DNA of 64,000 nt from NCBI RefSeq assembly GCF_018143015.1, contig NC_054751.1:16353292-16417291 (forward strand), given 5' to 3'. The position numbers were made by a program, and so were the translations under genes. Below the pieces are notes generated by a model. That model saw only the letters and a list, made by a program, of their open reading frames with translations. It was not told the origin of the DNA and ran no database searches. Source of the stretch: Lytechinus variegatus (taxonomy: Eukaryota; Echinodermata; Echinoidea; Temnopleuroida; Toxopneustidae). This document shows positions 32,178 through 51,500 of this stretch, piece after piece. Position 1 is the stretch's first letter. Every line of letters starts with the position of its first letter.

Positions 32178-35100
32178 CGCATACATTCGTCAATCCGAAG
32201 GTTCGTAATCCCGAAGGTTCGTCAATCCAAAAACGAAATAAGGTTCGTAATTCCGAAGGTTCGTTAATCCGAAAACGAAATAAGGTTCGTAATTCCGAAG
32301 GTTCGTTAATCCGAAAAAGAAATGAGGTTCGTAATTCCGAAGGTTCGTCAATCCGAAAACGAAATAAGGTTCGTAATTCTGAAGGTTCGTTAATCCGAAA
32401 AGGAAATAAGGTTCGTTGATCCGAAAACGAAATAAGGTTCGTTAATCCGAAAACGAAATAAGGTTCGTAATTCCGAAGGTTCGTTAATCCGAAAAAGAAA
32501 TGAGGTTCGTAATTCCGAAGGTTCGTCCATCCGAAAACGAAATAAGGTTCGTTAATCCGAAAATTAAATAAGGTTCGTATTTCCGAAAATGAGAATAATT
32601 CATTTTGGTAACAAAAACGATGTTGTCGTTACAAGATTACACGATATTATGCAATGATAGTAATAACGATCGATGATACATGCGTGTGTTGTAGCCAAAA
32701 GCATGTACATGTATATCATTGAAAATATAGGCGCCCTGATCAAGCATAGGCCGATTTCGATTTTATCTGAGCAATTGCTGCCTAAGCAAATGGTTTAAAG
32801 ATGCAGGGATCAATTGTGTTGGTCGCATGCGAGTAACTTCTAGATAATAGGATTTGTATTGGAGGGGATGCCATTTTTAATAACAGCTTCTGCTGGTAAT
32901 AAAAATAATACTAATAATGATCTTTGTGAGATGTTGAAAGCGCGAATCGCAAGCTCAAACTAGTACACATTTCAAGACGTGAATTGAGCATTCGGAGCAT
33001 TTTTTGTAATCGTGAGAAAGATGTGTATCTTTCTAAAGAATTAATGCGAGGGCGATCTGTATACTGACCTGGGGCCCGTTGCATAAATTGTTTTAACAGG
33101 AGTTTTTGCCCTGTGCTAAAGTCAATGGCGGAAATCAGACTAACCATAGTTTTCAGTTTTTACCAGAGTTTTCTAAGGTAAAAAGGTTTATGCAACAGGC
33201 TTCAGAAAGTAATCTTTTAAGGACTGCATTTAGTGACTCATGAATAGAGTATATATCTCACGAACTAAATAATGAGAGCGCGAACCGCAAGCTGAAAATT
33301 TGTGATATTCCAACCTGAAAACTGGACATTTTATACTTTTTTTTATTTGTAACCAGGAATAGAATGAGTTCCTCAATAAACAATACTTGATGCGAGCGAG
33401 AAACGTGAGCCAAATTTTTCCGATTTTCCAAACCTGAAAACTGGACATTCTAAGCATTCTTTTAAAAAAAATAATAATAGCTGGGAGAACAGTTTTCAGA
33501 ACTGAAGTGGCTTCCCTGGGTAAATAATATCTATATCAATTATCATTCTAGACCTACATGAAATTACCAAAAGTTTGAGCACGTGATTCGCTCGCAACAT
33601 CTCACAAGGATGCCCTTTTATAAGTACTTGACCAAAAAGGCGAATTTTACATCTTCAGATTTGATTTTTTCCCCCAAACCGCTTGCTCGCTACGCTCGCA
33701 GAAATGAAACGTAAATGTATAACTCTAGTGATCACTTAAAAAATTGTGCTCAATTTAATTTCTACAAAACACACAACCTCTTTACACAGATGATAATCTC
33801 ATGGTGAAAATATCCGCTTGCACCAAATTGCCCCTATTGGCCCTTTTTTTGCTTTGCATCCCCCCCCCGAAAAAAAGAAAATACGTTCCGCCGCCATTGG
33901 TTGAAAAACGCATCGTCTTCATGGCAAACTGCAAAAAGTTCTTAAAATGTCCCCTTTAGATCAGGTCAGAGCTTATATATTTAAAATTTCTGTTCGCGCT
34001 TCTTGCTCGCAGTTATTATCTAAATTTAGTTACTTAGGCATCTCGTTTTGAAGATCACAAACATATTGCCCATCAAAAAAAGTATATAGCTCGCGCTCGC
34101 ATTATTTAAAAAGGGTTTATCATGTTATTACATATTTACTTTATTTCATAAGTATAAAGCTAATTATTGACTGTTAGGACTACCCTTTCAAAGAAACAAA
34201 AAAAAACAACTTTAAGCTGCCGATCGAGGAAAATAGGACTGAAAAAAATATTGCCCCCCCCCCCTATTTGACGAAAGTTGGATCCGCCGGGCGGGAGGCA
34301 TGTTGCACTTGCACCCCCTAAATTAAATTAAAAAAAACAGGGAAATTAATATTTTCCAAAATGGGAAAGTTCCTTTTTCAAAAATAAATATGCCGTTTTT
34401 TATGTTTTTTCGAAATGAAATACTCTTTTTAAAGTATACAAGTTAAGTTTTCAGGCTGGAATATTGCAAATTTTCAGCTTGCGCTTCGCACTCTCGTGTG
34501 ATTGGTGAAATATGCATCCTAAAGAGGTCACTGAATGCTTTCTTTAACAGGTTCCTTTTCTGGTCAGTATGTTTAAGCTCGCGTTTTACGCTCGTGTTAA
34601 TTCTTTAGTTATATGCACATCTTTTTAATGACAGCAGAAATCTGCTCGAATTTAAAAAAAATTATTTTCATTTTTTATTTAAATACCCTAAAGTTTTAGC
34701 TTGTGATTCACGCTCGCAACACCTCGCAATAATGCCATTTTAAGAATAATTGACCCCAAAAAACGTTTTACAACTTCACCTTTGAATTTTTTTTACCAAG
34801 CCGCTCGCTCATTATACTCTCTCCCGAAAAATAAAGCCTAATTATACATTTTGCCATAATAAGAAGTCACTTCAAAAAAGTTTTTCTCTACTTAATCACT
34901 ATCAAACACACTGACTTCAAGCAGATGATAATCTTAAGGTGAAAATATCACCAAAGTGCCCATTTTGACGTATGAGTTTCATTTTTGGCTTTACCCCCCA
35001 AAGAAAATTCGTTCAGCCGCCCTTGCCTTCCCATCCTCATAATGATTGAACGGCAACAGTGCCCCCTCCCCTTGCCTCTGCTTTCACGGTTTTCATTTTT

Positions 35101-35652
35101 CGGATTAACGAACCTTATTTTGTTTTCGGATTAACGAACCTTATTTCGTTTTCGGATTAACGAACCTTATTTTGTTTTCGGATTAACGAACCTTATTTCG
35201 TTTTCAGATTAACGAACCTTATTTTGTTTTCGGATTAACGAACCTTATTTCGTTTTCGGATTAACGAACCTTCGGAAAAACGAACCTTATTTCATTTTCG
35301 GATCAACGAACCTTCGGAATAACGAACCTTATTTCGTTTTCGGATCAACGAACCTTCGGAACAACGAACCTTATTTCGTTTTCGGATTAACGAACCTTCG
35401 GAACAACGAACCTTATTTCGTTTTCGGATTAACGAACCTTCGGAACAACGAACCTTATTTCGTTTTCGGATTATCGAACCTTCGGAATAACGAACCGTCG
35501 GAATTACGCCACAAATGTTCGGATTAACGAACCCTTTTTCGTTTTCGGATTAACGAACATCGAGGTATAGGCAATTTACGTGTTTCGGAATTACGAACCT
35601 TCGGAATAAAGAACCTTCGGAATTACGAAGCTTCGGAATTACGAAGTGTAAC
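32178..35652. mobile_element. TU-like foldback transposon with tandem-array inverted arms
   Basis: The outer left arm (32178-about 32600) is an array of TTCGTTAATCCGAAAACGAA and shorter TTCGTAATTCCGAAGG units. The right arm (about 35095-35652) is the same array inverted. CAATAAGAC is found on both sides (32169-32177 and 35653-35661), a likely 8-9 bp target-site duplication. The centre has GCGAGC/GCGAACCGCAAGCTG-type repeats, oriented + in the left half (about 32930-33450) and - in the right half (about 33575-34820), like an inner inverted domain. This fits the sea urchin TU description (tandem-repeat outer inverted domain, inner domain, 8-bp duplication). No transposase frame is seen. Confidence 0.8.
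33071..33203. mobile_element. Short MITE inside the TU-like element
   Basis: Ends are GGGGCCCGTTGCATAAA and, reversed, GAAGCCTGTTGCATAAA, about 130 bp apart. It is nested within the left inner domain of the foldback element, so it entered after or travelled with it. Confidence 0.6.
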
Positions 35653-37862: not shown

Positions 37863-40276
37863 ATGGCTTCACAAAAATCATTTTGTATAGTTACAGGGGC
37901 AAGCAGGGGCATCGGTCGTGCAATTGCTATCAATTTTGCCAGGTCATTTTCTGCGGAGTCTCGGATTGTTGTGACAGGGCGAACGGCGGAGGCCTTGAAC
38001 GAGACGAAGCAGATGATCCAGGCCGCTGCTCCCGGTGTTCACTGCACGGTTGTCATCGCCGATCACTCGGATGAGGGTGGTATGTCAAACACTCTCTCTG
38101 AGGTCACAAAAGATGTCAATCCAGAAGAATTTCAGCGATGTTTCCTCATCAATAATGCTGCTAGCTTGGGAGATGTGTCACGTTATGCTCGGCAGTTGGA
38201 TGCTTCTGATCTGAGCAGGCTGCAGAAAGTATGCATGTTGAATGTTACTTCAGTGTTGCTCCTGACCTCGCATTTTCTGAAGACCTTTCCGCGGAGGGAT
38301 GGACTGTCCAGAACTATCGTGTCCTTGTCATCGCTCTCTGCTTTGGTACCATTCGCCAGTTGGTAAGTTAATCATGTTTTGTTTTTGAAATACTCCTATG
38401 CAGGGGTGTTGTCCTATGTAGGGATCGTTGGCGTGATGAAGGCGAATCTTGGCCTTGGTGATGGTTATCCAGGATGGCCAACATGGGAGTATCATAATGT
38501 GGTTGTCCAGTGGGTGGTTTCCTGCAGGGGTGGCTGTCTGTAATAGATGGTTTTCATAGTGGATCTAGGGGGTGTTAATTGTCCAAGAGATTGTTTAGAG
38601 AATATGTAATGAAGGTTATCTATAACCTTGAGAATAGTTACAGGGATGTTTGTCTGCAGGGGTTTGATGCCTGTATAATAGGTAGGGATAGTCGTCTAGG
38701 AGATGGTCACCCAAAGGGTTATTGTCCAAGTGATGCTTGATCAGGACATTTTCATGGTTATCCGGTATAGTTCAGCTGATTGTCCATTGGATTTAGTTGT
38801 CCGGGAGTTCTGGGTAATGGTCAGGGAAATTTGTTGAAGGGGTAGTTGATCAGAAGTGGCTGTGGTGATGAGTATCCATGGCGGTTAATATTGGGGATAA
38901 TAATAATAGGAGTGGTTGTCTACACTCTTAAAAATGTTGGGCAACATACTGCCTACACAACAGTTGGTTAAAGCTTTATCCGATTTTGGGTAGTTTTAAA
39001 CCAATGTGTGATTTGGGTGAAAAGTACGCTGTATTGGTTGAAAATTACCCAGAGTTGGATATATTTTTTTAACCAATATCGGTGTGCACATGCAGTATGT
39101 TGCCCAACGTTTTAAGAGTGTACACTTTAAGAATTATTGGGTAAAACTTTAACCGGCAGGAGGGTAGTTACGTGTCCAACCAATTCTGGGCAGTATTTTA
39201 CCCAATGCGGGAAGCATATTGTTCAGTAAGGTTTAAAAAATAAGCATTGACTACTTTAGAATGGGTCAAATTTTCATCACACGTACTGGATAAATAAGAA
39301 TGACCAATATTGGTTGGACACATATACCCTCAAGGAGCATTATTATCCAATATTTTTAGAGAATATGGGCGGCTGTCTATCGTAAACTCATTGGAAGGAT
39401 GGTTGTCAGGGGTGGCTAACGTTCGGAAAATTGCCCAGGAGGTTGGTTCAAGGAGATGGTCATGAAGGCATTGATTGTCGGAGCGGGATGGTTGTCCAAG
39501 GATGAGATGATCATGTCTATAATAATGCTCCACTGTATTTGGGAATTTTGGTCAATTTGCACTAAGATATACATTCTTGAAACCATTCATATTTTGTTAT
39601 GTGGAGCGTTGTGGCCCATTGATTAGTCTCGGGACTTTGAAACAGAGGGTCGTGGGTTCGAATCCCAGCCATGGCGTAATTTTTTTCGGCAAGAAATTTA
39701 TCCACATTGTGCTGCACTCAACCCAGGTGAGGTGAATGGGTACCTGGCAGGAATTTATTCTTTGAAATGCGTGTGCGCTGTAATCTTAGTAATTACGGCT
39801 GCCAAGCTACAGCTGGGGGAATAATATCCAAGTCTTTTGGAAGCGCATAGACATTATTCATAATTGTATTGTGATATGCGCTATACAAGAACTGTGTATT
39901 ATCATTATTGTTATTATTATTATCATTATTATCATCATCATTCTAACCTGTTTGCAGCTCTGTTTACTGCATGACGCAGGCAGCTAGACTCATGCTCTTC
40001 AAGACCATAGCTCTAGAGGAACCCGATGTTCGAGTTTTGAGCTATAACCCAGGCCCGGTGGACACGGCAATGTTCAAAGACATGCAGACCAACAGTGCCA
40101 GTGCTGAGTGCAGGAAGATGCTAGAAGTTACTGAAAGCGAACAGAAGTTGCTCCAGCCGGATCAAACCGCTTCAAGGCTGCTCAGCATCTTGGAGAAGGA
40201 TGCATTTGAGTCCGGGGCTCACGTTAGTTACAACGATGACTTGGCAGAGACGGTCGGTAACTTACGCAAGAAGTAG
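37863..40276 (+). CDS. SPR: Sepiapterin reductase-like short-chain dehydrogenase
   Basis: Two exons, 37863-38362 and 39958-40276 (TAG), join in frame to give 272 residues (human SPR 261). The start is MASQKSFCIVTGASRGIGRA with context AACATGG. The known reaction is NADPH-dependent reduction in the last steps of tetrahydrobiopterin synthesis in the cytosol. Visible SDR landmarks are the nucleotide loop TGASRGIG, the NADP-side GRT, NNAA in the cofactor strand, VSLSSLSALVPF with the catalytic Ser, Tyr in SVYCMTQAA, then LSYNPGPVDTAM, and the SPR C-terminal ESGAHV. Oddly, the YxxxK lysine is Gln (YCMTQ), encoded just after the splice junction. Residues beyond GAHV (SYNDDLAETVGNLRKK) extend past the human end. 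Family assignment is secure. Catalytic competence is uncertain. Confidence 0.9.
38400..38920 (+). repeat. Degenerate GGTTGTCC-type minisatellite in the SPR intron
   Basis: Variants of GGTTGTCCAGG and TGGTTGTC recur irregularly every 25-45 bp here and again at about 39365-39510. Divergence is too high to define a period by eye. Confidence 0.4.
38922..39121. mobile_element. 200-bp MITE with ACACTCTTAAAA ends
   Basis: ACACTCTTAAAAATGTTGGG at the left and its inverse CCCAACGTTTTAAGAGTGT at the right form 30-bp terminal inverted repeats. They enclose TTGGGTAG- and TTGGTTAAA-type motifs. A second, more decayed, similar stretch follows at about 39122-39355. It lies in the SPR intron. Confidence 0.7.
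39603..39943 (+). mobile_element. tRNA-derived SINE abutting the SPR exon 2 acceptor
   Basis: Head GGAGCGTTGTGGCCCATTGA and B box GGGTTCGAATCCC are followed by a body with AGGTGAATGGGTACCTGGCA and the tail CCAAGTCTTTTGGAAGCGC. It ends in an (ATT)n/(ATC)n run that stops about 14 bp before the intron's AG (39956-39957). Confidence 0.85.
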
Positions 40277-41509: not shown

Positions 41510-44500
41510 ATTGGCGCTCCCTAGTTCGAAGATCGATTCGCCGCCTCGTAGTTGGAACACCAATCTTCTGTTCCCCTAATTCAAACATCAATTTTGCGCC
41601 CCCTAGTTCTAACATCAATTTGGCGCCCCCTAATTCGAAGATCAATTTGGCACCCCTTAGTTCTAACATCACTTTGGTCCCCCCTAATTTGATCATCAAT
41701 TTGGCGCCCAAACCTTAGTTCAAACATCGATTTGGTGCTCCATAGTTCGAACAACATTTTTGCACACTGTAGTTCGAACATCAATTTGGCGCCCATTTAT
41801 TTCAAACATAAGTTTGGTGCCCCTACTTCAACCATCAATTCGGCGCCTCTACTTCAAATGTCAGTTTGGCGCCCCCTAATTCCAAGATCTATTTGGCGCC
41901 CCCTACTTCGAACATGAATACAACACTCCCTAGTTCGAACACAATTCGGCTCCCTCTAGTTTGAGCGTTAATTTGGCTCCCCTGGTTTGAAAATCAATTC
42001 GGTGCCCCTTGTTCGAACATCACTTTCGCATTCCCCTAATTTGAACATCGATTCGGCACCCCTAGTTCAAACATTAATTCAGCGCCCCTAGTTTGAACAT
42101 CATTTGCCCCCCATAATTTGATCATCAATTCGGCGATCCCCTTGTTCGGACATTATTTGGGCACCCCCCTAATTTGATCATCAATTTGGCGCCCCACACC
42201 TTATTTCAAACATTGATTTGGTAGTTCGAACATCAATTTTGCACCCTGCAGTTCTTACAGCAATTTGGCGCCCATCCAGTTCAAACATCAATTTGGCGCC
42301 CTCATATTCCAAGATCATTTTGTCGCCCCCAAGTTCGAACATCAAATTCGGCTCCCTCTGGTTCGAACGTGAATATGGCGCACCTTAGTTCGAACATCAA
42401 TTCGGCGCCCCCTTGTTCGAACACCCCCTTGTTCGGGCACCGAATCTATTCGGTGCCCATCTTGTTTGAACACTTTGGCTCCCCCTAATTTGATCATCAA
42501 TATGGCGCCAAATAGTTCGAACATCGATTTGGCACATTGTAGTTCTACTTCTCACACCAGTGCCCATCTAGTTAAAAAATCAATATGGCGCCTCCTAATT
42601 CGAAGATCAATTCGGCGCCTCTAAGTTCGAACATCAGTTCGGTTCCCCTATTACAAACATCACTTTGGCGCTCCTACTTCAAACATCAGTTCAACACCCC
42701 TGCGTCAAACATTTCGGCTCCCCCTAGATCGAACATCAACTTGGCACCCCTAGTTCAAAGATCGATTTGGTGCCCCCTAGTTCGAAGATCAATTCAGCAA
42801 CACCCTAGTCGAATAGTTATTCGGATCCCATCCAGTTCTAACATAAATTCAGCGCCCGTAGTTCGGGCATCACTTTAGTGTCCCTTTTTTTGAAAATCAG
42901 TTTGGTGCTCCCTAATTAAAAATCAATTTGGCACCCTGTAACTCGATCATCAATTCGGCACCCCCTAGTTAGAACAGCCCTAGCTACAACATCGATTCAG
43001 GGCACCTTGTTCGAACATCAGTTCGGCTCCCCTTTCTTCAAGCGTTAGTTTTGTGAGCCCTAGTTTGATCATCATATTGGCTCCCCTAGTTCAATCATCA
43101 ATTTGGCGCCCCCTTATTCAAAGATTAATTTGGCACCCCCAGTTCTAACACCAATTTGGCACCCCCTAGTTCGAAAATCAATTCGGCGCCCCCTTGTTCG
43201 AACATCGCTTTGGCACCCCCTTAATTTAAACATCTATTTGGCACTAATAATTCAAACATCGACTTAGTGCCCCCTTATTCAAAGATGAATTTGGCGCCCC
43301 CAGTTCGAAGACCAATTTGGCGCCCCCTAGTTCGAACATCACTTTGGCACCCCCTAATTTGATCATCAATTTGGCACCCCGTAGTTCTCATCAATTTGGC
43401 GTCTCTACTTCATACATCAACTCGGCGCCCCTACTTCAAACATCTATTTGGCGCCCCCTAAATCCAAGATCATTTTGGCACCCCCTACTTCGAACATGAA
43501 GTCGGCGCCCCCTAGTTCGAACATCAATTCGGGCTCTTTAATTCGAAGATAATTTTGGCGCCCCTAGTTCGAACATCAATTCGACAGCCCTCTAGTTCGA
43601 ACGTCTATTTGGCACGTCCTATTTTAAACCTCAGATCGCCGCCTCTAGTTCGAACATCGATTCCGCTCCAACTGGTTCGAACATCTGTTTGGTGCCCCCT
43701 CCCAGTTCTAACATTAGTATAAGACCTCTAGTTCGAACATCACTTTGAAGCCCCTCCCCCCTAGTTCGAAAATCAATTTTACACCCCCTTGTTTGAACAT
43801 CGATTCGGTGCTCCCTAATTCGAAGATCAATTTCGCACCCTGTAGTTCGAACATCAATTCGGCTCCCTCTGGTTCGAACGTTAATTTGGCGCCCCCTTGT
43901 TCGAACATGAATTCAGTGCCCCTAGTTCGAACATCACTTTGGCGCCCCTAATTTGATCATCAACTTCGCGCCCCAAACCATAGTTCAAATATCGGTTTGG
44001 CGCCCTTCTAGTTCGAACATTGATTCGGCGGCCCTACTTCAATACGGCGCCCTTAATTCCAAGATCAATTTGGCGCCCTATAGTTCGAACATGAATACAG
44101 CACCCCCTAATTCGAACACCAATTTGGCGACCATTGTTCAAATATCAATTTGGCGCCCCTAGTTCGAACATCTATTCGGCGCCTCCCTAGTTCGAACAGC
44201 TATTCTGCGCTCCCTAATTCAAATATAAATTTAGTGCCCCCTGGTTCGAACATCAATTCGGCTCCCTCTTGTTTAAACGTGATTTTTGGCACCCCTCGTT
44301 CGAAAATCAATTCGGCGCCCCCTTGTTCGAGCTTAGCTTTGAGACCCCCCTAATCTAAACATCTATTCGGCGCCACTAGTTCAAACAGACTTGGTGCCAC
44401 ATAGTTCGAACATCAATTTGACTCCCAGTAGTTTTAACATCAATTTGGCGCCCATCTAGTTCAAACATCGAATCGGCGGCCCAACTTCAATATGGCGCCA

Positions 44501-44554
44501 CTAATTCCAAGATCAATTTGGCGCCCTCTAGTTCGAATAGTAATACAGCACCCC

Positions 44555-44850
44555 ATAATAATAATAATAATAATAATAGGCATTTATATAGCGCCATCTA
44601 TCTAGAAATAATCTATTCCGAGGCGCGTTGTTATTATTATTATTACCCCGGCTTTAGCTCGAGCTGCCTCTCAGCGCTCATGCATTCAAGGAATTAATCC
44701 TACCGGGTACCCATTCACCTCACCTGGGTCGAGTGCAGCACAATGTGGATAAATTTCTTGCTGAAGGAAATTACGCCATGGCTGGGATTCGAACCCACGA
44801 CCCTCTGTTTCAAAGTCAGAAGACTTATCCACTGGGCCACAACGCTCCAC
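44555..44850 (-). mobile_element. SINE inserted in the minisatellite
   Basis: A 13-bp target-site duplication AATACAGCACCCC is at 44542-44554 and 44851-44863. The minus-strand head is GGAGCGTTGTGGCCCAGTGG and the B box is GGGTTCGAATCCC. The tail ends in (TAT)n. The satellite unit at about 45475-45520 matches the pre-insertion sequence, an empty-site paralogue within the same array. Confidence 0.93.
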
Positions 44851-46150
44851 AATACAGCACCCCCTAATTCGAACACCAATTTGGCGACCCTTGTTTAAAT
44901 ATCAGTTTGGCACCCCTAGTTCGAACATCGATTCGACAGCCCTCCAGTTCGAACGTCTATTTGGCACGTCCTATTTTGAACCTCAGATCACGGCCTCTAG
45001 TTCGAACATCGATTCCGCTCCAACTGGTTCGAACGTCTGTTTGGTGCCCCTCCCAGTTCTAACATTAGTATAAGACCTCTAGTTCGAACATCACTTTGAC
45101 GCCCCTCCCCCTCCCCCCCCCCCTAGTTCGAAAATCAAATTTTACACCACCTTGTTTGAACATCAATTCGGTGCTCCCTAATTCGAAGATCAATTTCGCA
45201 CCCTGTAGTTCGAACATCAATTCGGCTCCCTCTGGTTCGAACGTTAATTTAGCGCCCCCTAGATCGAAAATAAATTCGATGCCCCCTTGTTCGAACATTA
45301 CATTCGCATCCCCCTAATTTGAACATCGATTCGGTGCCCCTAGTTCAAACATGAATTCAGTGCCCCTAGTTCGAACATTACTTTGGCTCCCCTCCAATTT
45401 GATCATCAATTTCGCGCCCTAAACCATATATAGCCAATATGGCGCCACTAATTCCAAGATCAATTTGGCGCCCTCTAGTTCGAATATTAATACAGCACCC
45501 CCTAATTCGAACACCAATTTGGTGACCCTTGTTCAAATATCAGTTTGACGCCCCTAGTTCGAACATCGATTCGGCGCCCCCCTAGTTTGAAAATCTAATC
45601 TGCACTCCCTAATTGAAAGATACATTTTGTGCCCCTAGTTCGAAGATCGATTCGGTGCCGTTACTTCAAACACCAATTAGGTGTCCTCCAATTCGAAGAT
45701 CGATTTGGCGCCCCCTAGTTCGAAGATCAATTCAGCATTACCCTAGTTCGAACAGTTTTTCGGCTCCCATCTAGTTCTAACATAAATTCAGCGCCCCTAG
45801 TTCGGGCATCACTTTAGTGCCCCCTAATTAAAAAATCAATTTGGCCCCCTGTAACTCGGCACCCCCTAGTTAGAACACCAAATTGGCATCAATAGCTACA
45901 GCATCGATTCAGGGCACCTTGTTCGAACATCAGTTCGGCTCCCCTTTTTTCGAGGGTCAGTTTTGCGAGCCATAGTTCGATCATCATATTGGCTCCCCTA
46001 GTTCAAACATCAATTCGGCGCCCCCTTATTATAAGGTTAATTTGGCGCCCCCAGTTCTAACACCAATTTGGCACCCCCTAGTTCGAACATCAATTTGGCT
46101 CCCACTGGTTCGAACGTGAATTTGGCACCCCCTTGTTCGAAAATCAATTC

Positions 46151-47170
46151 GGCGCCCCCATGTTCGAACATCGCTTTGGCCCCCCTTAATTTCAAACATC
46201 TATTCTGCGCCACTAGTTCAAACATCGACTGGGTGCCCCATAGTTCGAACATCAATTTGGCTCCCTGTAGTTTTAACATCAATTTTGCGCCCATCTAGTT
46301 CAAACATCAATTCGGCGCCCCTACATCAGATATCCATTCGGCGCCCCTACTTCAAATATCAATTTGGCGCCCCTAATTCCAAGATCAATTTGGCGCCCCT
46401 AGTTCGAACACCTAATTGGCACCTCCTAGTTTGAACTTCAGTTCGTCGCCCCTAGTTCGAACATCGATTCCGCTCCAACTGGTTCAAACATCTATTTTTT
46501 TAAAGTTCTAACATTATTATAGGGCCTCTAGCACGAACATCACTTTGGAACCCCCCCCCCCCACTTCAAAAATCAAATTTGCACCCCCTTGTTTGAACAT
46601 CAGTTTGGTGCTCCCTAATTCGAAGATCAATTTGGCACACTGTATTTCGAACATCCATTCGGCGCCCCCATGTTCGAACATCGCTTTGGCCCCCCTTAAT
46701 TTCAAACATCTATTCTGCGCCACTAGTTCAAACATCGACTGGGTGCCCCATAGTTCGAACATCAATTTGGCTCCCTGTAGTTTTAACATCAATTTTGCGC
46801 CCATCTAGTTCAAACATCAATTCGGCGCCCCTACATCAGATATCCATTCGGCGCCCCTACTTCAAATATCAATTTGGCGCCCCTAATTCCAAGATCAATT
46901 TGGCGCCCCTAGTTCGAACACCTAATTGGCACCTCCTAGTTTGAACTTCAGTTCGTCGCCCCTAGTTCGAACATCGATTCCGCTCCAACTGGTTCAAACA
47001 TCTATTTTTTTTAAGTTCTAACATTATTATAGGGCCTCTAGCACGAACATCACTTTGGAACCCCCCCCCACTTCAAAAATCAAATTTGCACCCCCTTGTT
47101 TGAACATCAGTTTGGTGCTCCCTAATTCGAAGATCAATTTGGCACACTGTATTTCGAACATCCATTCGGC
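46151..47170 (+). repeat. Recent tandem duplication of about 510 bp within the minisatellite
   Basis: The block beginning TGTTCGAACATCGCTTTGG at 46161 recurs at 46671 and stays nearly identical for about 500 bp. The main differences are T-run and C-run lengths. Some 18 units were copied as a block. Confidence 0.85.
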
Positions 47171-48207
47171 TCCCTCTGGTTTGAACGTTAAATTGGCGCC
47201 CCTAGTTTGAAAATCAATCCGGTGCCCCCTTGTTCGAACATCACGTTCGCATCCCCTTAATTTGAACACCGATTCGGCACCCCTAGTTCAAACATTAATT
47301 CAACGCCCCTAGTTCGTTAGGTGCTCCCTAATTCGAAGATCAATTTGGCACCCTCTAGTTCGATCACCAATGCAGCACCCCAACCCTAGTTCGACATCAA
47401 TTCGGCGCCCCCTAGTTTGAAGATCATTTCGGCGCCCCCTAGTTTGAACATCAATTCGGCGACCCCAAGTACAAACGTCAATTTGGCGCCCCCTAGTTCG
47501 AACCTCAATTTGGCACCCCTATTTCGAACATCTCTTTGGCTCCCGCTGGTTCGAACAACAATTTGGCGCCACCTAGGTCGAACATCAATTCGGAGCCCCC
47601 CTAGTTCGAAGAACAATTTGGCGCCCCCTGGTACGATCATCCATTCGGCTCCCTCTGGTTTGAACGTTAATTTGGCGCCCCTAATTTGAAAATCAATCCG
47701 GCGCCCCCCTTGTTCGAACATCACTTTCGCATCCCCTCAATTTGAACACCGATTCGGCACCCCTAGTTCAAACATTAATTCAGCGCCCCTAGTTCGAACA
47801 TCACTTTGGCACCCCCTTGTTTGAACATCAATTAGGTGCTCCCTATTTCGAAGATAATATTGGCACCATCCAGTTCGATCACCAATGCAGCACCCCCCAC
47901 CCTAGTTCGACATCAATTCGGCGCCCCCTAGTTTGAAGATCATTTTGGCGCCCCCTAGTTTGAACATCAATTCGGCGACCCCAAGTGCAAACGTCAATTT
48001 GGCGCCCCCTATTTCGAACATCTTTTTGGCTCCCGCTGGTTCGAACATCAAATTGGCGCCACCTAGGTCGAACATCAATTCGGAGCCCCCCTAGTTCGAA
48101 GAACAATTTGGCACCCCCTGGTACGATCATCAATTTAGCGCCCCACCTCTTAGTTCAAACATCGATTCGGCACCCTGTAGTTTGAATATCAATTTGGCAC
48201 TCCCTAG

Positions 48208-48503
48208 TTTATATAAGGTTTCAGGTATACTTACCATTCTTATACATGTACGCCTATCTTTTTATTTTACCGTTAATACTAAGATGATCTATAATGTTTC
48301 GATGTTTTTGTATCACGTTGATATTTTTGTATCTTACCCTGTTTTTCGATATATGCTTATGATTATATGCATATTATTGCCAGTTTACTATGTTTTTTAT
48401 GCACAAGGACCAAGACGCAAAACAGTAATTTTATCTCAGATATTGTGAACCTGTTTGAATATGTGTGAGTAATAAATAAATGAATAAATAAATAAATAAA
48501 CAG
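48208..48503 (+). mobile_element. LINE 3'-end-like insertion in the minisatellite
   Basis: About 300 bp of unrelated AT-rich sequence interrupts the array and ends in (AATA)n (48470-48500), as a 5'-truncated retroposon would. No coding part and no clear target-site duplication is seen, so the family is unknown. Confidence 0.55.
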
Positions 48504-51500
48504 AACATCGATTCGGAACCCCTTGTTTGAACATCAATATGGCGCCTCGTAATTCAAAGATCAATTTTGCGCTCCCTAGTCCGAAGATCGATTTGGCAAC
48601 CCCTAGTTCGAACATCGATATGACGCCCCCCCCCCATTGTTCAAACATCGATTTGGCACTCCTTAATTAAAAGGTTAATTTGGCGCCTCGAGTTCGAAGA
48701 TGTATTCGGCTCCCCTAGTTCATCGAACATCAATTCGGCACCCCGTAGTTCGAAGATCGATTTGGCGCCCCCTAGTTCGAACATACCTTTAGCGCACCCT
48801 CCCCCCTCCCCAGTTCGAACATCAATTTTGCCCCCACCCCTTAGTTAAAACATCAATATGGTACCCTGTATATTGATCATCAATTTAGCACCATGTAGTT
48901 AGAATTTCAATTTGGCCCCCCTAGTTAGAACATCGATTCAGGGCCCCTCGTCCGAACATCAGTTCGGCTTCCCCTACTTAAAGCGTCAGTTTGCACTCCC
49001 TAGTTCGATTACCAATTTGGCACCCTTTAGTTCGAACAAAAATTCGGTTCCCTCTGGTTCGAACGTTGAATTTGCACCCCTAGTTCGAAAATCAATTCGG
49101 TGCCCCCTTGTTCGAACATCACTTTCGCATCCCCCTAATTTGAACATCGATTCAGCGCTTCTGGTTCAAACATAAATTCAGCGCCCCTAGTTTGAACATC
49201 ACTTTGGCGCCCCTTAATTTGATCATCGATTTCGCGTTCCAAACCTTAGTTCAAACATCGGTTTGGTACCCCATAGTTAGAACATCAATTTAGCACCCCC
49301 TAGTTCGAACATGAATACAGCACCCCCCCCCCTAATTCGAACATCAATTTGGCGACCCTAGTTCAAATATCACTTATGCGCCCCTAGTCTAAACATAATT
49401 TCGACGCTTTCCTTGTTCGAACATCTATTCTGCGCTCCCTAATTCAACGATAATTTTTTTGCCCCCCTAGTTCGAAGATCGACTCGGCGCCCGGTAGTTC
49501 GAACATCAATTGGTGCCCCCTAGTTTGAAAATCAATTCGGCACCCTCTAGTTCGAACATCAATTCGGCGCCTCCTATTTGAAACATCAATTTGGTGCCCC
49601 CTAGTTTGAACATCAATTTGGCGCCCCTACTTCAAACATCAATTAGGCGGCCCCTTATTCGAAGATCAATTTGGCGCCCACTAGTTCGAACCTCATTTCG
49701 GCTCCCACTTGTTCGAACATTAATTTGGCGCCCCCTTAGTTTGAACATCAATTTGGCAGCCCCACTAGTTCGAACATCGATTCGACGCCCCTGGTTTTGA
49801 CGTTTGACATCAATTTGACACCAGCTAGTTCAAACATCAATTTTGTGCCATTCCTTTAAACATCAGATCGGCGCTCATTAATTCAAAGATTAATTTGGCG
49901 CTCCCTAGTTCGAATATCAATTCGGTGCCCCCCTTCTTTGAACATCACTTTCGCATCCCCCTAATTTGACATCGATTCGGCGCCCCTAGTTCAAACATAA
50001 ATTCAGCGCCCCTAGTTTGAACATCACTTTGGCGCCCCCTTATTCCAAGATCAAATTGGCGCCCCCTTAATTTGAACATGAATACAGCACCCCCTAGTTC
50101 GAACATGAATTTGGCAACCCTTTAGTTAAAACATCTATTTGGCACCTCCTAGTTTGAACCTCTGTTTAGCGCCTCTACTTCGAACATCGATTCCACTCCA
50201 ACTGGTTCGAACATCGATTTGATGCCCCGTAGTTCGAACATCAATTTGACACCCTGTAGTTCGTTCTAAGATCAATTTGGCGCCCATCTTGTTCAAGCAT
50301 CAATTTGGCGCCCCTCCAAATATCAATTTGGCGCCCCCTAATTCCAAGATCAATTTGGCGCCCCCTCCTTCGAAGATCACTTTGGCATCCCCTAATTTGA
50401 TCATCAATTTGGCACCTTGTAGTTCTAACATCAATTTGGCGTCTCTACTTCACACATGAACTCGGCGCCCCTACTTCAAACATCTATTTGGCGCCCCCTA
50501 AATCCAAGATCATTTTGGCACCCCCTACTTCGAACATGAAGTCGGCACCCCCCTAGTTCGAGCATCAATTCGGGCTCCATAATTCGCAGATAATTTTGGC
50601 GCCCCTAGTTCGAACATCAATTCGACAGCCCTCTAGTTCAAACGTCTATCTGGCACATCCTATTTTGAACCTCAGATCGCTGCCTGTAGTTCGAATATCG
50701 ATTCCGCTCCAACTGGTTCGAACATCTGTTTGGTGCCCCCTTCCCAGTTCTGACATTAGTATAAGACCTCTAGTTCGAACATCACTTTGGAGCCCCTCCC
50801 CCCTAGTTCGAAAATCACTTTTACACCCCCTTGTTTGAACATCAATTCGGTGCTCCCTAATTCGAAGATCAATTTCGCACCCTGTAGTCCGAACATCAAT
50901 TCGGCTCCCTCTGGTTCAAACGTTAATTTGGCGCCCCTAGATCGAAAATAAATTCGGTGCCACTTGTTCGAACATTACATTCGCATCCCCCTAATTTGAA
51001 CATCGATTCGGTGCCCCTAGTTCAAACATGAATTCAGTGCCCCTAGTTCGAACATCACTTTGGCGCCCCCCCTAACTTGATCATCAATTTCGCACCCCAA
51101 ACCATAATTCAAATATCGGTTTGGCGCCCATCTAGTTCGAACATCGATTCGGCGGGCCTACTTCAATATGGCGCCACTAATTCCAAGATCAATTTGGCAC
51201 CCTCTAGTTCGAATATTAATACAGCACCCCCTCATTCGAACATCTATTCTGCACTCACTAATTGAAAGATACATTTTGTGCCCCTAGTTCGAAGATCGAT
51301 TCGGCGCCCGGTAGTTCGAAAATCAATTCGGCACCTGGTAGTTCGAACATCAATCGGCGCCTCCTATTGTAAACATCCATTTGGTGCCCCCTAAATTCAA
51401 AAATCAATATGGCGCCCCCTAGTTCGAACATCCATTTGGCTCCCCCTAGTTCGAAGATCAATTTGGCACCCGGTAGTTCGAACATCAATTCGGCGCCTCC

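Follow-up and report, generated by a model that had tools for sequence, protein, structure and literature searches.

Does a gene of the sea urchin Lytechinus variegatus that reads as a sepiapterin reductase (SPR) still encode a working one when the catalytic lysine of its YxxxK motif has been replaced by glutamine? SPR governs the final steps of the route to BH4, the cofactor used in monoamine and nitric oxide synthesis. The gene, called W below, lies in a stretch of 64,000 nucleotides of contig NC_054751.1 (the window). The species agrees with a comparison at one locus: a morpholino published for L. variegatus Axin (PMC8034878) paired with the genome in 25/25 bases and at one site only, where its S. 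purpuratus counterpart had 3 mismatches. A first-pass annotation, made from the letters of the window, had pointed out the replacement and had listed a young pseudoenzyme, a functional variant, a polymorphism and a sequence error as its possible meanings.

The coding sequence of W comprises 819 bases in two exons (Table 1) and specifies 272 amino acids with 0 internal stops. Its splice sites are canonical and its frame is open, free of any frameshift or splice defect, just as the first-pass annotation had described it; its GC3 is that of its paralogues. Exon 1 carries the cofactor loop TGASRGIG, Arg40, Asp67, NNA, Asn127 and Ser157. The proposed membership of the SPR family was borne out by the equivalog model for SPR, TIGR01500, on which the whole protein reached 235.2 bits (cut-off 206.55); the protein also passed the classical SDR superfamily model PF00106 (89.4 bits, cut-off 26.6). 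The dinucleotide-binding stretches TGxxxGxG (as TGASRGIG), NNA (as NNAA) and PGPVDT are all kept, in agreement with the earlier remark that the cofactor motifs are intact; TGxxxGxG and NNAG-like stretches are motifs of the SDR Rossmann fold. The solved structures closest to W are those of human and mouse SPR (the top 8, among the best 60 of 216 matches). Identity to human SPR is 44.1% (112/254), about the same as that of paralogue A described below (43.7%, 111/254). Like vertebrate SPR (human SPR, EC 1.1.1.153; PDB 6usn, 1z6z and 4hwk), W has the dinucleotide motifs, Asn127, Ser157 and Tyr170, but it differs by the changes Lys174 to Gln, Asp257 to Ser, Gly173 to Thr and Asp204 to Ala. Residues are given in human numbering, taken from the structure alignment as the 6usn chain number minus 2.

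Table 1. Coordinates of gene W, of its kept and altered residues, and of the two SPR paralogues. Positions without a prefix are those of the window.
Feature	Position	Strand	Remarks
W exon 1	37863-38362	+	ATG to donor GTAAGT; residues 1-166 and two bases of codon 167
W intron	38363-39957	+	1595 bases, GT-AG, phase 2
W exon 2	39958-40276	+	acceptor TTTGCAG; catalytic Tyr region to stop TAG
Ser157, TCG, kept	38331-38333	+	position derived from residue number
Tyr170, TAC, kept	39965-39967	+	
Thr173, ACG	39974-39976	+	Gly (GGG) in both paralogues; Gly in human SPR
Gln174, CAG, replacing catalytic Lys	39977-39979	+	AAG in both paralogues
Ala204, GCA	40067-40069	+	Asp in both paralogues and in human SPR
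Ser257, AGT, replacing Asp257	40226-40228	+	GAT in both paralogues; Asp in human SPR
SPR paralogue A	C12:602106-600615	-	own-genome search
SPR paralogue B	C12:981760-983252	+	own-genome search

The codons at 39965-39979 read TAC TGC ATG ACG CAG, that is Y170-C-M-T-Q174, and Ser157 lies 13 residues N-terminal of Tyr170. The substitution that had been reported, YCMTQ with Tyr and Ser retained, is therefore present as described. Within the Asn-Ser-Tyr-Lys set, Asn127, Ser157 and Tyr170 are found and Lys174 has become Gln, so that the set is incomplete. Asp257, which is needed for sepiapterin reduction, is likewise missing (Ser257); Asp260, three residues further on, is kept. These are part of a wider divergence: W differs at 27 of the 111 columns where A and human SPR agree, including K174Q, G173T, D204A and D257S. 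The last three had escaped the first-pass annotation, D257S among them, for which published SPR inactivation data exist. K174Q requires the single base that had been suggested (AAG/CAG), AAG being the codon of both paralogues, and G173T (GGG/ACG) and D257S (GAT/AGT) each require two relative to the paralogue codon. A protein that keeps its fold signature and has lost conserved catalytic residues, as the W sequence has, corresponds to a pseudoenzyme as defined by sequence, namely by the absence of conserved catalytic motifs (PMC10211241). The proportion of key residues lost (2/5), set against the 27/111 changed conserved sites, is not significant (P 0.35); hence a special relaxation at the active site is not demonstrated, and random change could suffice.

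We then considered whether another transcript could supply the motif, since a different acceptor for exon 2 had been named as an observation that would overturn the finding. Two-exon models were enumerated around the W intron from 20 GT donors and 93 AG acceptors. Seventeen combinations were open, the full 272 amino acids were obtained only with donor 38362 and acceptor 39958, and YxxxK occurred within residues 126-200 in 0/17. Alternative splicing as the source of the missing motif was thus rejected for two-exon models. A tblastn search of the whole window with the three SPR proteins found no second exon 2 with YxxxK, and neither a tRNA nor a known RNA was detected in the W intron region with ARAGORN and Rfam.

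Several repeats were observed in and around the gene. Inside the intron, at about 39620-39670, a stretch that has gggttcgaatccc at its end is similar to the B box of a tRNA-derived repeat; ARAGORN and Rfam scored nothing there. At window positions 41511-49998 a large minisatellite was traced whose degenerate units, of about 27 bases each (TTGGCGCCCCCTAGTTCGAACATCAAT), show 62-66% matches in the long rows. It starts 1.2 kb past the W stop codon, in a scan that covered up to position 50000. Tandem arrays with units of 16, 26, 42 and 126 bases, based on TTTCGGATTAACGAACC, lie at window positions 35097-35645.

Gln at the Lys column was seen in W only: the column holds Lys in 41/41 other proteins compared, which were 30 bacterial SDRs, 8 SDR exons of the same genome, A, B and human SPR. 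The bacterial control is small: it draws on three genomes and takes in 30 of their 91 listed matches. In the same-genome control, 12 of the 19 matches listed were examined; 4/12 were without the motif and the other 8/8 had Lys. Four entries of the profile alignment (L004, L005, L022 and L023) were dropped because the column is absent from them. The genes entered as L017-L019 recur as L024-L026, and each entered the count a single time; for L021 the residue was taken from its translation by visual inspection. A scan for SPR in bacterial and archaeal genomes gave 3 loci from 62 candidate stretches, all three bacterial. The SDR motif is called strictly conserved in a review (PMC7520308). In the accessible portions of the literature on Lys-to-Gln SDRs, SPR mutagenesis and SDR pseudoenzymes, no active YxxxQ SDR surfaced, and no description of the W gene was found there or in that on sea urchin SPR.

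The first-pass annotation had also advised a search for a paralogue with an intact motif. In the own-genome search the exons of three SPR genes, W, A and B, accounted for 6/11 matches, the five others being weak (24.7-36.1 bits). Two genes thus answer that description, with YNMGK in A and YNTGK in B, and both keep Asp257. Each consists of two exons, and its intron matches that of W in alignment position and in phase; unlike W, both have YxxxK and Asp257. Their TIGR01500 scores are 243.6 (A) and 245.7 bits (B), and the identity of W is 50.7% to A (136/268) and 50.0% to B. The original observation is strengthened by these results, because Asp257 is lost as well and intact paralogues exist. Matches to GTP cyclohydrolase I and 6-pyruvoyl-tetrahydropterin synthase were also found in the genome, by means of the two models PF01242 and PF01227, so that a BH4 pathway likely exists, with A and B supplying its SPR step.

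A and B themselves lie within an inverted duplication of about 24 kb (C12:589701-613500 and C12:970987-995000) that reaches the edge of the compared stretch. Its main aligned pieces are 88-98% identical and two minor ones about 81%, counting pieces of more than 250 bases only. It may be genuine, or it may reflect two haplotypes that the assembly placed next to each other; heterozygosity in L. variegatus is about 3% (PMC11310861).

The age of the separation of W from A was gauged from their shared residues. Fourfold sites differ at 49/67 (73%), which is near saturation, while the proteins are still identical at half of their residues. In a relative-rate test with human SPR as outgroup, 27 changes were unique to W and 28 to A (chi-square 0.018, p 0.89). 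W has therefore evolved no faster than A, an argument against prolonged decay. The lack of an excess of protein change, together with saturated fourfold sites, favours a paralogue that is old and has long been under constraint over a base error. Judged from these comparisons, the W/A split is old; the loss of function in W may be recent.

In other SDRs, mutation of the Lys strongly impairs the enzyme. In canonical SDRs the pKa of the Tyr is lowered by the Lys (PMC5039031), and in the SDR protein MAT2B both Tyr and Lys lie at hydrogen-bonding distance from the nicotinamide ribose (PMC3793261). For SPR itself, Lys-mutant data were not found in the accessible literature, where PMC7520308 cites a paper on the Ser-Tyr-Lys triad. 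That review names Ser157, Tyr170 and Asp257 as active-site ligand contacts in human SPR. Sepiapterin conversion by the human D257G mutant was 'completely lost' (PMC7170898), and sepiapterin reduction was likewise abolished by D257H, which altered the production of reactive oxygen species only minimally (PMC7520308). In mouse SPR, mutation of the Tyr or the Ser singly left low activity (reviewed in PMC7520308), and SimC7 carries out ketone reduction with neither Tyr nor Lys (PMC5039031), so that a missing Lys alone is no proof of inactivity. SimC7 (Ser-Ile-His) resembles W in being an SDR with an altered Lys position; it differs in being an extended SDR that is also without the Tyr, which W keeps, and that uses a substrate proton (PMC5039031).

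Together, these results suggest that W is probably an old, maintained SPR duplicate that has lost sepiapterin reductase activity. The protein would still fold and bind NADP(H). Loss of Lys174 would leave the pKa of the Tyr unlowered and weaken the hold on the nicotinamide ribose, and loss of Asp257 would leave the pterin without its anchor. Sepiapterin and 6-pyruvoyl-tetrahydropterin would then not be turned over at a useful rate, and BH4 synthesis would be left to A and B. The role of W would most likely be non-catalytic, either NADP(H)-dependent or partner-binding, or else consist in the slow reduction of a non-pterin carbonyl. Two points bear on this loss of activity: the whole-length score lies above the SPR equivalog cut-off, which speaks against it, and Asp260 might partly substitute for Asp257. 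As far as its residues tell, the best reading of W is an NADP(H)-binding SPR paralogue, pseudoenzyme or repurposed.

The main rival explanation holds that W is a working reductase whose substrate has changed. It would carry out NADPH-dependent reduction of a non-pterin carbonyl through Ser157 and Tyr170, with Gln174 hydrogen-bonded to the nicotinamide ribose and with residues 204 and 257 reshaping the pocket. In its favour, Asn127, Ser157, Tyr170 and the cofactor motifs were retained under long constraint. The D257H mutant, which loses sepiapterin reduction with little effect on reactive-oxygen production (PMC7520308), indicates that other SPR activities are independent of Asp257, and SimC7 exemplifies an SDR that acts without YxxxK (PMC5039031). 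However, Gln occupied the Lys column in 0/41 other proteins, and the literature surveyed, in its accessible portions, offered no active YxxxQ SDR; we consider a changed substrate somewhat unlikely. That W is instead an ordinary functional SPR tolerating Gln174 and Ser257 is highly improbable: it is above the TIGR01500 cut-off, it keeps Ser and Tyr, and single triad mutants of the mouse enzyme have low residual activity (PMC7520308), but human SPR loses sepiapterin reduction altogether with either D257G or D257H, and in W the Lys is missing too.

The sequence error or fresh one-base polymorphism envisaged at the outset has lost ground as the whole story. AAG and CAG are one base apart, and with heterozygosity of about 3% (PMC11310861) the Lys change by itself could be polymorphic. 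Nevertheless, a single sequencing error does not adequately account for the codon differences at 173, 174 and 257, the two-base changes G173T and D257S representing divergence that exceeds one base. The absence of a stop, frameshift or splice defect and the lack of an excess of protein change in W also count against this group of readings. We therefore judge it very unlikely that the replacement is a polymorphism or an error in one assembled haplotype, or that W is a very recent pseudogene.

A more specific form of the preferred reading, lost sepiapterin reductase activity in an old duplicate, is that W serves as a dedicated regulatory subunit. It would be a dead SPR that senses NADP(H), joins an active paralogue at the interface of helices E and F, and adjusts either how much BH4 is made or how output divides between BH4 and sepiapterin. 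SPR is a homodimer formed through these helices (PMC7520308), which would make pairing of W with an active paralogue possible. Identity between W and A is 18/30 in the helix E region and 12/23 in the helix F region, with estimated helix limits, against 136/268 overall; such pairing is thus possible, but no special conservation points to it. In trypanosomatid deoxyhypusine synthase a dead paralogue activates its partner (PMC3663545), and W is likewise an inactive-looking paralogue beside the gene of an active oligomeric enzyme. The fold and the enzyme are different in that case, and for W, which is known from sequence, the pairing is hypothetical. We regard the regulatory subunit as quite unlikely.

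Pseudoenzymes are common in general, and W, a candidate pseudoenzyme within a well-known family, is a useful case rather than a startling one. The label 'sepiapterin reductase' that the family model confers would be wrong for it, which calls for caution. If the reading is true, W would be a natural test case, in a model sea urchin, of an SPR without both the Lys that supports the general base and the Asp that anchors the substrate. An activity-independent role has been reported for human SPR (PMC7170898), and W would allow testing for an evolved counterpart of this non-enzymatic role.
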